Source of the DNA: Acidobacteriota bacterium
GTDB lineage: Bacteria; Acidobacteriota; Blastocatellia; Pyrinomonadales; Pyrinomonadaceae
Reading direction: 5' to 3'
Length of the DNA stretch: 43,861 bases
Assembly: GCA_003223975.1 (NCBI GenBank)
Contig: QHXS01000045.1
Coordinates: 1 to 43,861, forward strand
Program-made: the position numbers and the translations under genes
The notes under the pieces: generated by a model
What the model saw: only the letters and a program-made list of their open reading frames with translations
Database searches by the model: none
What the model was told of the DNA's origin: nothing
In this document: positions 2-4,892 of the stretch, in pieces
Numbering within the stretch: position 1 is the stretch's first letter
Layout of the letters: every line of letters begins with the position of its first letter

Positions 2-2152
2 TTCATTGACCGTTTTGCAGGCACCTTTTCTACGGAAGCTCTGCGGATGAAATTCATCGCGGCGGTTTCGACCGGCAAACTGAAGATCATCGGCGGAAAT
101 AATTTCGAAGAGTACAAGGAAGTCCTGAAGGACGGCGAGATCGCAAAACTGTTCGAAACGATAAAGGTCGGCAACTCTCCCGCAAAGCCGGTCGAGGCAA
201 AGAAGGACGTCGTTTCGAACAGTTTCCGCGGTGACAACATCTCCCCCGATCTTCGCGAAATGATGGCAAAGGATCCGAGCGGCAGCAAACGGATCGACGT
301 CATCATCCAGGCGAAGGACGCTGATAACGCGGCTCTGCGCTCGTTGCTAAACAGCGGCCAAGCAAGGATTTCCGACCGTATCGGCAGTAGCAACGTCCTG
401 GTCGTAAATGTTCGACTCTCGGCACTTCAAACACTTTCAAGCAGCGGATTAGTGAATTATGTTTCGCCCGACCGGCCGACGAGGTCGTCGGGGCACGTCG
501 AAGAAACCACCGGCGCCGAGCAGATGCGGTCCAGTTCGAACGGCGGCTGTGTCAGCACCCAGACGACCTGCGACGGAACGGGCGTAGGCGTAGCGATCGT
601 CGACTCGGGCATCTACAGTTCGCACAACGGATTTAAGAACTCGGCAGGTGATTCGCGGATCGTCGCAAATGTGAACTTTACTTCTTCGTCGAATTCCAAC
701 GACGGGTACGGACACGGCACGCACGTGGCAGGCCTGGCACTCGGCAGCGAAAGCGTCAACGACAATGCTTACCGCGGCATCGCTCCCGGAGCGAACATTA
801 TCAGCGTGAAGGTTCTTGATGATAACGGCGCGGGCCAATCTTCGTGGCTGCTGAACGGTTTGAATTGGATCCTGGCAAATCGGGCAGCCTACAACATTAA
901 GGTCGTAAACCTCAGTCTTGGAACGAAGTCGGTCGACTCCTACACCAATGACCCGCTTTGTCTCAAGGTTAAAGAGCTTGTCAACGCCGGCATCGTCGTC
1001 GTTGCCGCAGCAGGTAATCTGGGTAAGAACTCGACAGGCCAGGAGATCTACGGCGAGATCCATTCGCCCGGTAACAGCCCATACGCAATTACAGTCGGGG
1101 CGAGCAACACGTTCGGCACTGCCTCACGCACGGATGACGTGATGGCAAGCTACAGCTCACACGGCCCGACCCGCAGCTTCTATACCTCGGCCTCTGGCGA
1201 ACCGGTCTATGACAACCTGATCAAGCCCGACCTGGTCGCTCCGGGCAATAAGCTTGTCTCGTATAGTTCGCCTTCTAATCTGGTCGCTCAGCACAACCCC
1301 TCGCTGGCGTTAGATTCGTCGAACGGCGAGGACTCGCTGATGTACATGAGCGGCACCTCGATGGCTGCTCCATTGGTTTCGGGTGCGGCTGCGATGCTGC
1401 TTCAGGTTAATCCGAATCTTACACCCGGAATGATCCGCATGCTGCTGCAGTACAGTGCACAGCCGATCGCCGGTGCCAATACTTTCGAACAAGGCGCGGG
1501 CCAGTTGAATATCGACGGCGCGGTGCGGCTTGCCAGGTCGCTAAGGACAGATGTTGATTTCCAGACGCTTGAAAAAGGTTCTTCCACAGTTTCTTCTGGC
1601 TGGACAATGCCTACGGCTTCTTCGTCGATCGGCGGCAACTCCTTCCCTTGGGCGCAACAAGTCATCGGCAAATACACGACGATCTCGGGTGCAAATCTGG
1701 TTTCGAAGTTCCAGAGCGTGTACAGGACCGAGAATGCGTTCGGCAACGGCATGCTCTATGCCAACGGAAACTTCGTGCCGGATACAACGAGCTTTTATAC
1801 GGCCGGTCTGACCGTTAGCGGGAATGTTACTACGAGTAACGGCAGTGCCCTTGGTGAAGGTTCGGTGTTTCTTTCGTACGGTGTGCTCGTCGGTGACGGT
1901 GTGCTCGTCGGTGACGGTGTGCTCGTCGGTGACGGTGTGCTCGTCGGTGATGGCGTGCTTGTCGGAGACGGCGTTCTCGTGGGCGATGGCGTTCTGGTCG
2001 GCGACGTCGAGCTCTTCTGCAACGGAGTGCTCATCGGCGATGGCGTGTTGATCGGAGACGGCGTCCTTATCGGCGACGGTGTGTTGATCGGAGACGGCGT
2101 GCTCATCGGCGACGGCGTCCTGATCGGAGACGGCGTTCTGATAGGCGACTAG
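2..2152 (+). CDS. S8 subtilisin-like serine peptidase, 5' truncated by the window edge, with C-terminal hexapeptide repeats
   Basis: Catalytic motifs VAIVDSGI (Asp), GHGTHVAG (His) and SGTSMAAP (Ser). The frame stays open upstream of the listed Met at 47 (FIDRFAGTFSTEALR-M), so the start lies outside the window. Confidence 0.93.
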   Translation, partial: FIDRFAGTFSTEALRMKFIAAVSTGKLKIIGGNNFEEYKEVLKDGEIAKLFETIKVGNSPAKPVEAKKDVVSNSFRGDNISPDLREMMAKDPSGSKRIDVIIQAKDADNAALRSLLNSGQARISDRIGSSNVLVVNVRLSALQTLSSSGLVNYVSPDRPTRSSGHVEETTGAEQMRSSSNGGCVSTQTTCDGTGVGVAIVDSGIYSSHNGFKNSAGDSRIVANVNFTSSSNSNDGYGHGTHVAGLALGSESVNDNAYRGIAPGANIISVKVLDDNGAGQSSWLLNGLNWILANRAAYNIKVVNLSLGTKSVDSYTNDPLCLKVKELVNAGIVVVAAAGNLGKNSTGQEIYGEIHSPGNSPYAITVGASNTFGTASRTDDVMASYSSHGPTRSFYTSASGEPVYDNLIKPDLVAPGNKLVSYSSPSNLVAQHNPSLALDSSNGEDSLMYMSGTSMAAPLVSGAAAMLLQVNPNLTPGMIRMLLQYSAQPIAGANTFEQGAGQLNIDGAVRLARSLRTDVDFQTLEKGSSTVSSGWTMPTASSSIGGNSFPWAQQVIGKYTTISGANLVSKFQSVYRTENAFGNGMLYANGNFVPDTTSFYTAGLTVSGNVTTSNGSALGEGSVFLSYGVLVGDGVLVGDGVLVGDGVLVGDGVLVGDGVLVGDGVLVGDVELFCNGVLIGDGVLIGDGVLIGDGVLIGDGVLIGDGVLIGDGVLIGD
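1880..2149 (+). repeat. 18-bp tandem repeat encoding (GVLVGD)x7 - VELFCN - (GVLIGD)x7
   Basis: Direct reading: 126 nt of GVLVGD units, one 18-nt divergent unit (2006-2023), then 126 nt of GVLIGD units up to the stop codon. Confidence 0.97.
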
Positions 2153-2390: not shown

Positions 2391-4892
2391 ATGTACAAGC
2401 AACGCTTTGCAAATAGCTATGTGATCGCAGTCATTGTGGCCGGTTCGTTGTGCGTGGCCGCGGCGTTGTTCGGTCTCCCGCGCGAACGGATCAACCTTGA
2501 AATGATCATTTTGGCGACACTGACGGTAGGATTCGGTTCTCGGGTCAGTGTCCCGATCCCTCGATTCAAATCTCACATTTCCGTTTCCGATACGTTTATT
2601 TTTCTCGCCCTACTTCTTTATGGCGGCGAGGTCGCCATACTTCTCTCCGGGGCCGAGGCGATATTTTCCTCCTGGCGTTTTTGCAATCGAAAACTTACCG
2701 TCTTTTTCAACGGCGCTGCCTGTGCGTTTTCCACGACATGCGTCATCGGAGTGCTTTCGCTTACAGGAGTCAATTATTCAGACGCGCACGCGCTCGGCTC
2801 TGGGGCGGATTACCAAAATATAGTCGTCGCGCTCTCGGCAATTGCTTTCACGCAGTATTTCATGAACACGATCCTGGCGTCGATATTCGATTCCCTCACG
2901 AACGAACTCCCGCTTTTCGAGACCTGGAAGAATAAATATCTCTGGACCTTCATCACTTATTCCGTCGGCGCCCTCGGCGCGGGTTTTTTGGTCCAGCTAT
3001 CGGAAAAATTCGGTTTCGCAGTGATCCTCGCGGTGTTTCCGATAGTTGCATTCGTTTACCTGACCTACAGCATGTATCTCCGGACAGTCGAAATGTCGAT
3101 CTCGCAGGCAGAGATCGCAAACGAATATGCAGCCGTCCTCGAAGAGCGGAGTGCCGCGTTGCGCGAATCGGAGCAAAGATTCCGAAGTGCTTTTAATTAC
3201 GCGCCGATCGGTATCGGGCTCGCGTCCGCTGAAGGTTCCTGGCTCAAGGTCAATCAGGCACTTTGCGACATCCTGGGATACGATGCTGACGAACTTTTGG
3301 AGCAGAGCTTTAGGGACATGATCGAGAGGAGCGATTTAGTTACCGCAACGTCCAGGATCAACACACTCCTAAGCGGTCAAATTACGAATTGTCAGTCTGA
3401 GCAACGCTGCCTGCATAAGGACGGCCGGATCGTGTGGACATCGTGGAGCGTTTCGACGGTAGGCGAACCGACTTCTGGAAACGCCAACCTCATCTTTCAG
3501 ATCCAGGACATCACAGACCGCAAACTTACGGAACAAAAGCTGAGGCATGAGGCCACACATGATTCTTTGACCGGCCTGCCCAATCGCGCATATTTCATGG
3601 CGCGCCTTACCGAGGCTCTACAACAAAGGCACCGTGACGCGAACCATGGCGTGAGTGTATTGTTCATCGACCTTGACCGCTTTAAGCACGTAAACGACAG
3701 CCTCGGCCATCTTATCGGTGATGGTCTGCTTATCGCGATCTCGAAGCGGCTGCAGGATTGCGTGAGACCCGCCGATACGGTCGCTCGAATGGGCGGGGAC
3801 GAGTTTACGCTGCTTGTGGAAGGCAAGCGCGATGCCGGCGAGATCGTTCGAATTGCCGAACGCATTCAACAAAAATTCAATGTGCCGTTCGAAATAGAAT
3901 CGAATGAGATATACAGCTCGGCGAGCATTGGCATCTTGCATGCTTCCGAACTGCACAAGACAGCCGAAGAGATGATGCGCGACGCCGATACAGCTATGTA
4001 TAGGGCGAAACGCGCCGGAAAAGCGAGGCATGAGGTTTTTGATCAGGAAATGTACGCCGAAGCGAAGGAAACTCTTATGCTCGAAACCGACCTTCGCCGC
4101 GCGGTCGAGAAAGACGAACTTAAGGTTTATTATCAACCGATCGTTTCGCTTGCGACCGGCGAGATTCGTGGCGTAGAAGCATTGGCGCGCTGGGAACATC
4201 CGGAATTCGGCGATATACCTCCGTCCAAATTTATTCCGCTTGCGGAAGAGATCGGCAGGATCGACGCGCTTGGCGAGAACATACTGCGGCGAGCATGCGT
4301 AGACATCGGTGCTGTCTATCGTGAGGTTCCCGACTGCGAATTCCTGAAGCTTAGCGTTAACCTTTCACCCAGACAATTTGCTAACCCACTGCTCGACAAG
4401 AACGTACTAAATATACTTTTCGATACGGAATTTCCGGTGGCGAGCCTGAGGCTGGAGATCACAGAGTCCGTCTTTTTCGAATATCAGGAACGGGCTCTCG
4501 ACATTCTGAACAAATTCAGGAACGAAGGTATCTCGATCGATATAGACGACTTCGGTACCGGTTACTCAAACATGAGCTATCTTGTTCGGCTGCCCATATC
4601 AACGCTGAAGATCGATCGCTCGTTCGTAGCAGCGATCACAAGTGACGGAGCAAATACCGAGATCGTCCAAATGATCGTGGCTCTGGCAAAAAACCTTGGT
4701 TTGCGAATCACTGCCGAAGGGATCGAAACGGAAGCGCAGCTTGAATCTCTAAAGAAGTTGAAGTGCGATGAGGGGCAAGGTTTTTACTTCGCAACGCCGA
4801 TGACGGCAGATGAATTTCGCGATTACTTATTGGACCGAAAGATCGGTCCTATTCACATAGACAATATCGAAATGATCGACCACGTACAGTAA
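2391..4892 (+). CDS. Membrane-anchored PAS-GGDEF-EAL bifunctional c-di-GMP protein
   Basis: Hydrophobic N-terminal segments, PAS-like region, ARMGGDEFTLL (GGDEF), GVEALARWEHP (EAL), DDFGTGYS. Confidence 0.95.
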   Translation: MYKQRFANSYVIAVIVAGSLCVAAALFGLPRERINLEMIILATLTVGFGSRVSVPIPRFKSHISVSDTFIFLALLLYGGEVAILLSGAEAIFSSWRFCNRKLTVFFNGAACAFSTTCVIGVLSLTGVNYSDAHALGSGADYQNIVVALSAIAFTQYFMNTILASIFDSLTNELPLFETWKNKYLWTFITYSVGALGAGFLVQLSEKFGFAVILAVFPIVAFVYLTYSMYLRTVEMSISQAEIANEYAAVLEERSAALRESEQRFRSAFNYAPIGIGLASAEGSWLKVNQALCDILGYDADELLEQSFRDMIERSDLVTATSRINTLLSGQITNCQSEQRCLHKDGRIVWTSWSVSTVGEPTSGNANLIFQIQDITDRKLTEQKLRHEATHDSLTGLPNRAYFMARLTEALQQRHRDANHGVSVLFIDLDRFKHVNDSLGHLIGDGLLIAISKRLQDCVRPADTVARMGGDEFTLLVEGKRDAGEIVRIAERIQQKFNVPFEIESNEIYSSASIGILHASELHKTAEEMMRDADTAMYRAKRAGKARHEVFDQEMYAEAKETLMLETDLRRAVEKDELKVYYQPIVSLATGEIRGVEALARWEHPEFGDIPPSKFIPLAEEIGRIDALGENILRRACVDIGAVYREVPDCEFLKLSVNLSPRQFANPLLDKNVLNILFDTEFPVASLRLEITESVFFEYQERALDILNKFRNEGISIDIDDFGTGYSNMSYLVRLPISTLKIDRSFVAAITSDGANTEIVQMIVALAKNLGLRITAEGIETEAQLESLKKLKCDEGQGFYFATPMTADEFRDYLLDRKIGPIHIDNIEMIDHVQ

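Follow-up and report, generated by a model that had tools for sequence, protein, structure and literature searches.

Subtilases of Acidobacteriota carry tails with many copies of a protein-specific hexapeptide

Polyubiquitin-type repeats are identical at the protein level, while their synonymous sites are divergent. The hexapeptide tail of the Acidobacteriota subtilase that is described here resembles them in both respects. However, ubiquitin is the same everywhere, whereas the unit of the tail is uniform within one protein but different between proteins. Further likeness exists to the left-handed beta-helix proteins (PF00132; LpxA, LpxD, QdtC), whose six-residue period and aliphatic-Gly-Asp pattern are also present in the tail. 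Unlike these helices, the tail has no predicted helix and no three-unit periodicity, only about half of its relatives match the profile, and in its family the core position may be occupied by Trp, Thr, Phe or Ala. In addition, the hexapeptides are joined to a protease and not to an acyltransferase. Bacterial pheromone propeptides that contain several identical copies and are processed by extracellular proteases are also known (PMC11343458). The tandem propeptides of Bacillota (Rap-Phr; PMC11343458) share with the tail the presence of several identical short peptides within a single exported protein, and Rap-Phr-type systems (PMC11343458) also share a neighbouring signalling gene and a private sequence for each system. 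In contrast to the Bacillota propeptides, the tail copies are fused to a subtilase, lie on a hexad lattice, and number about 5 to 30; the neighbour of the tailed subtilase encodes a membrane sensor, unlike in Rap-Phr, and a release of peptides is putative here. Literature searches yielded no account of such subtilase tails.

The window, i.e. the whole stretch of 43,861 nucleotides that was analysed, begins with the gene of the tailed subtilase, which is followed by the gene of a sensor protein. The features are as follows.

2..2152, + strand: S8 subtilase ORF with hexapeptide tail (ORF list, contig position, Pfam Peptidase_S8 with E 8e-50)
575..1501, + strand: catalytic domain Peptidase_S8, residues 192-500 of the 716-aa ORF (Pfam, triad columns, AlphaFold2 with high confidence)
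1502..1879, + strand: C-terminal domain between the catalytic domain and the array, strands predicted in its later part (AlphaFold2)
1880..2005, + strand: seven GVLVGD units; the DNA of units 1-3 is identical, unit 4 has one synonymous change
2006..2023, + strand: divergent unit VELFCN, the one unit of the array that contains Cys (cf. RSLFSN of L008 and WFITN of L023)
2024..2149, + strand: seven GVLIGD units, followed by the stop codon TAG at 2150-2152
2391..4892, + strand: next gene, encoding an N-terminal membrane domain (about 240 aa), PAS, GGDEF and EAL (Pfam)

The Peptidase_S8 profile matched the first ORF with 170 bits, compared with a curated cut-off of 21.8 (Pfam), and the columns of the Asp-His-Ser triad (D35, H72, S287) were invariant in an alignment of 87 relatives. 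The N-terminus of the protein is missing because the contig (G000:C154) starts at base 1 of the window. In the AlphaFold2 model of 550 aa, the pLDDT was mostly about 90 up to residue 460, which covers the catalytic domain and the C-terminal beta domain, and subtilisins and other subtilases were the sole kinds of proteins among the best Foldseek matches of this model. None of the NCBIfam models reached its cut-off on the tailed subtilase. The catalytic domain and the triad columns are common to the window protein and the S8 class, and it is the C-terminal repeat tail and the operon with a sensor gene that set this protein apart from usual S8 subtilases.

A previous reading of the sequence alone (the sequence-only reading) had described the tail as an exact 7+1+7 array with a Val half followed by an Ile half, and the translation of 1880-2149 (+ strand), which yields precisely (GVLVGD)7-VELFCN-(GVLIGD)7 as the last residues of the S8 subtilase, agrees with this. 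Its statement that the only Cys of the tail lies in the divergent unit was likewise correct. The array is far beyond chance; Tandem Repeats Finder reported an 18-bp unit with 14.4 copies and a score of 231. As had also been noted, the first DNA units are nearly identical and the later ones vary synonymously. For the 14 regular units, pS was 0.61 and pN was 0.06, and the latter resulted from the Val/Ile difference alone. This comparison of the unit DNA supports the proposal that the first units expanded recently and that selection acts at the protein level. Open frames were also present opposite the array (window 1795-2106 and 1541-2398, - strand), one of which is rich in Ser, Thr and Pro. They found no support as genes and are regarded as a by-product of the repeat.

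Relatives were collected from related genomes and from GTDB contigs, and the resulting set comprised 137 distinct ORFs, nearly all of which had hexad tails. Of the 147 genomes that were sampled from the class, 102 had a tail match, and a single genome had as many as 17. The unit number varied from about 5 to 30, and the family contained 43 different majority unit types. The arrangement 7+1+7 is one of many, others including 17, 9, 10, 11, 3+RSLFSN+5, 3+WFITN+8 and 7+3. The symmetry was therefore not kept among relatives, and the idea that it is a meaningful design found no support. The order of Val before Ile, in contrast, turned out to be real and to extend further than had been claimed: in all 19 arrays with both residues Ile came on average after Val, and 12 of them had a single switch. 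As the species with mixed arrays are related, this order is probably an inherited polarity. A motif of the GDxTxxM type is located at or near the end in most relatives, but it is absent from the window protein. Tailed subtilases also occur in other families of the Acidobacteriota, where the units contain Trp, e.g. 20 copies of GALWGD (L160) or of GILWAD (L156). The tail belongs to a family of such subtilase tails that extends across the Acidobacteriota; they carry many copies of a protein-specific hexapeptide on a six-residue lattice. Several individual loci should be mentioned. The cultured member Pyrinomonas methylaliphatogenes K22 (L082) has the unit GVLVSD. L166:647-2927 (offsets on the - strand) encodes a further subtilase of the family, whose tail repeats GIMLSD 30 times; these copies are encoded by 12 distinct DNA units with a synonymous ratio of 0.49. 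Contig JAEUQN010000007.1 (L098, L101, L071) carries tandem genes for tailed subtilases with GIALAD, GIILGD, GVILGD and other units. In L051, L054 and L063, a domain that by eye looks like fibronectin type III trails the tail, and thus the tail is not always C-terminal.

The units of one protein were found to be alike, whereas those of different proteins were not. The median pairwise identity of units within arrays was 0.93, while the majority units of different proteins had an identity of 0.63. At the same time, the synonymous differences between units amounted to 0.89 of the random expectation and are thus close to saturated, and uniformity was not correlated with synonymous recency (rho -0.04). 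Units that are dispersed, with other hexads between them, were still alike (median 0.92, synonymous ratio 0.90). For 53 disjoint pairs, the identity was 0.905 within and 0.799 between proteins (p 6e-8). Over all 53 pairs, codon sharing was slightly higher within proteins (0.468 vs 0.411), but the result was similar for the 30 disjoint pairs without excess within-protein codon sharing (0.894 vs 0.774, p 7e-5). In the closest relatives, the units are orthologous by position, and such pairs keep their codons at orthologous units, for example 0.80 for L106/L079 compared with 0.24 at non-orthologous units. Whole sets of units were exchanged between proteins: L077 and L084 both have six units with exactly equal spacing, which are all GVVTGD in the former and all GVITGD in the latter, and eight copies of GVLIGD in L066 are replaced by seven copies of GVIFGD in L088. 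The uniformity is not universal, as 15 of 124 arrays were heterogeneous and lacked any majority unit, and a minority of arrays had low synonymous ratios, which indicate recent homogenisation of the DNA. Because the synonymous sites are near saturation and the identity holds without excess codon sharing, the sameness of the units appears to be kept by selection at the protein level and not by recent DNA copying. Slippage alone was rejected on the basis of the synonymous saturation and the codon retention. Older homogenisation of the DNA followed by strong purifying selection could still be an alternative source of the sameness. A genome-wide mutational bias is argued against by the two paralogues of the source genome, which have different units; those of its second tailed subtilase are GLLISD. 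Together, these findings show that the tail is real and is under protein-level selection.

The sequence-only reading had interpreted the tail as a left-handed beta-helix of 15 units in five three-unit coils. The local fit to the hexapeptide rule was retained: the Pfam profile Hexapep matched the window with 43-44 bits, which is above the curated cut-off of 27, and a sequence search of the PDB gave significant matches of the window tail to left-handed helix proteins. Furthermore, of the 184 gaps between blocks of units, 105 had a length divisible by six, and spacers of six residues conform to the hexad pattern, so that the spacing of the sequences supports a real hexad lattice. The claim of the helix itself was weakened. 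In the AlphaFold2 model (window 500-2149, 87 sequences), the array had a pLDDT of about 41-60 and no strands, although a misalignment of the repeats is possible, and a similar strandless array was predicted for a second member, L081. As AlphaFold2 is reported to over-predict solenoids for perfect repeats (PMC11795689), the absence of a solenoid is noteworthy here, though not decisive. A similarity at lag 3 was not detected along the arrays (z -0.2 for contiguous units and -3.5 with spacers), and therefore nothing points to the coupled stacked coils of a triangular helix. The unit numbers in relatives were not regularly multiples of three, and Hexapep matched just 46 of 87 relatives (E up to 0.01). 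At the core position, T, F or A was found in 10 of 124 majority units of the class, and Trp in the other Acidobacteriota families. A left-handed helix of five coils found no support in AlphaFold2, the lag test or the unit counts. Disorder, random unit counts and the lack of a central break, which the sequence-only reading had itself named as speaking against its proposal, were all checked, with the outcome that the helix had lost support.

The gene downstream of the tailed subtilase encodes the sensor protein listed above, the membrane nature of which was read from its hydrophobic sequence. In relatives, the same N-terminal sensor domain is combined with GGDEF/EAL, with a histidine kinase plus receiver, or with HD outputs. 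The domain is similar to MASE9 in L095, with an E of 0.02 only. The sensor domain matches four places of the source genome, the two best of which lie directly 3' of its two tailed subtilases. Outside the class, 7 of the 20 loci from other families had the sensor domain, and a subtilase was located just upstream in six of them. In addition, a gene for a two-domain GNAT is often inserted between the subtilase and sensor genes of relatives; this gene (about 305-345 aa) is directly 3' of or overlaps the tailed subtilase gene in 53 loci, for example L006:542-1477 (-) and L036:4608-5543 (+). The window does not contain a GNAT gene, and the sensor gene follows the subtilase directly. Among the 64 loci with at least 2 kb of downstream sequence, 39 had a GNAT and/or a sensor, while 25 had neither, and several of the latter had another tailed subtilase instead. 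In the subfamily of L067, L085 and L097, the subtilase is followed by a long ORF, still open at 863-909 aa, the sequence of which looks like a sigma-54 activator. A 27-bp repeat with two copies is located within the sensor gene of the window (2605-2658).

Covariation of the units with these neighbours was quantified as well. Plain partial Mantel tests yielded an r of about 0.5 for GNAT and of about 0.2 for the sensor (p 0.001-0.002), and a control with the two halves of the catalytic domain gave an r of 0.14. With clade-restricted permutations, the value for GNAT was 0.553 compared with a null range of 0.45-0.51 (p 0.002-0.003), i.e. a small residual, and nothing robust was left for the sensor. 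The restricted permutations and the control with the catalytic halves show that the apparent coevolution of the units with GNAT or sensor is mostly clade structure.

Several explanations of the tail were weighed. It could simply be a structural beta-solenoid, i.e. a left-handed beta-helix or a related hexad solenoid, that serves as a stalk or stabiliser and is shaped by constraint on each hexad and occasional old homogenisation, with no specific partner. This is conceivable, albeit on the unlikely side. The Hexapep score, the matches to solved helix proteins, the multiples of six in the gaps together with the on-pattern spacers, and the recent homogenisation of some arrays are in accord with it, whereas the strandless model, the missing lag-3 similarity and the Trp in the core of units from other families are not. 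Moreover, structure alone leaves the match within proteins and the difference between proteins at all positions unexplained, and it does not account for private uniform units because other hexads are tolerated as spacers. Even less can be said for a neutral origin, in which recent slippage or gene conversion would have produced the units of a tail of low complexity. The identical DNA of units 1-3 in the window and the minority of arrays with low synonymous ratios would fit, but the excess of pS over pN in the window contradicts it, the near-saturated synonymous sites, together with the codons retained at orthologous units, refute it for most arrays, and dispersed units are alike as well. We consider this origin highly improbable.

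Two further explanations invoke recognition between molecules. The tail might be a multi-copy precursor of a peptide signal, from which the hexapeptides would be excised and then perceived by the membrane sensor encoded next to it, while the GNAT would modify or regulate the peptide. Such a precursor would explain why identical copies are kept by selection within a protein and why paralogues have private codes; the sensor and GNAT genes adjoin, homologues have N-termini with a signal-like hydrophobic character, and multi-copy pheromone propeptides offer a possible precedent by analogy (PMC11343458). Yet the six-residue lattice that runs through the spacers points to a fold and not to loose peptides, heterogeneous arrays exist, unit-sensor covariation does not exceed the clade level, and the peptide release is putative. 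We regard this explanation as unlikely, and the same degree of doubt applies to its wider form, a private peptide signalling of Acidobacteriota with about 5 to 30 copies of an own hexapeptide, a membrane sensor, often a GNAT, and a separate code for each paralogue. Alternatively, the units could stack with those of further molecules of their own protein, which would require a uniform unit in each protein and, to avoid mixing, different units in paralogues. Such a homotypic assembly accounts for the sameness without an external partner and for hydrophobic and Trp-rich units; however, the link to the sensor and GNAT genes is not explained by itself, and the model of a monomer is uninformative here. 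It appears quite improbable.

The explanation that we favour, tentatively, is that the tail presents many copies of a recognition motif that is specific to the protein and sits on a hexad scaffold; this motif would be read by a cognate partner, possibly within a sensory operon. In its favour are the private uniform units with near-saturated synonymous sites, the exchange of whole sets and the sensor and GNAT neighbours, whereas the heterogeneous arrays, the recently homogenised ones, the mostly clade-level covariation, the 25 loci with neither neighbour and the lack of a GNAT gene in the window speak against it. The uniform units suggest that every unit must fit one putative common partner. 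Selection would then act on sameness itself, each unit being recognised by one and the same partner, and, because every unit would meet this partner, all copies would have to change together when its specificity shifts. As a part of the secreted protease, the tail would serve as a multivalent array for recognition, and the likeliest partners would be products of the same operon, i.e. the membrane sensor and perhaps the GNAT. The operon might thus form a sensory cassette, in which the sensor reads the tail of the protease, either in its displayed form or after its release.

Repeats that are identical within a protein in spite of scrambled codons, and that are replaced by another set in relatives, represent evidence for selection on sameness. 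This pattern points to one partner for all units, the specificity of which changes. Should the adjacent sensor be this partner, the tailed subtilases would belong to a cassette for sensing or communication that is widespread in this common soil phylum and apparently undescribed so far.
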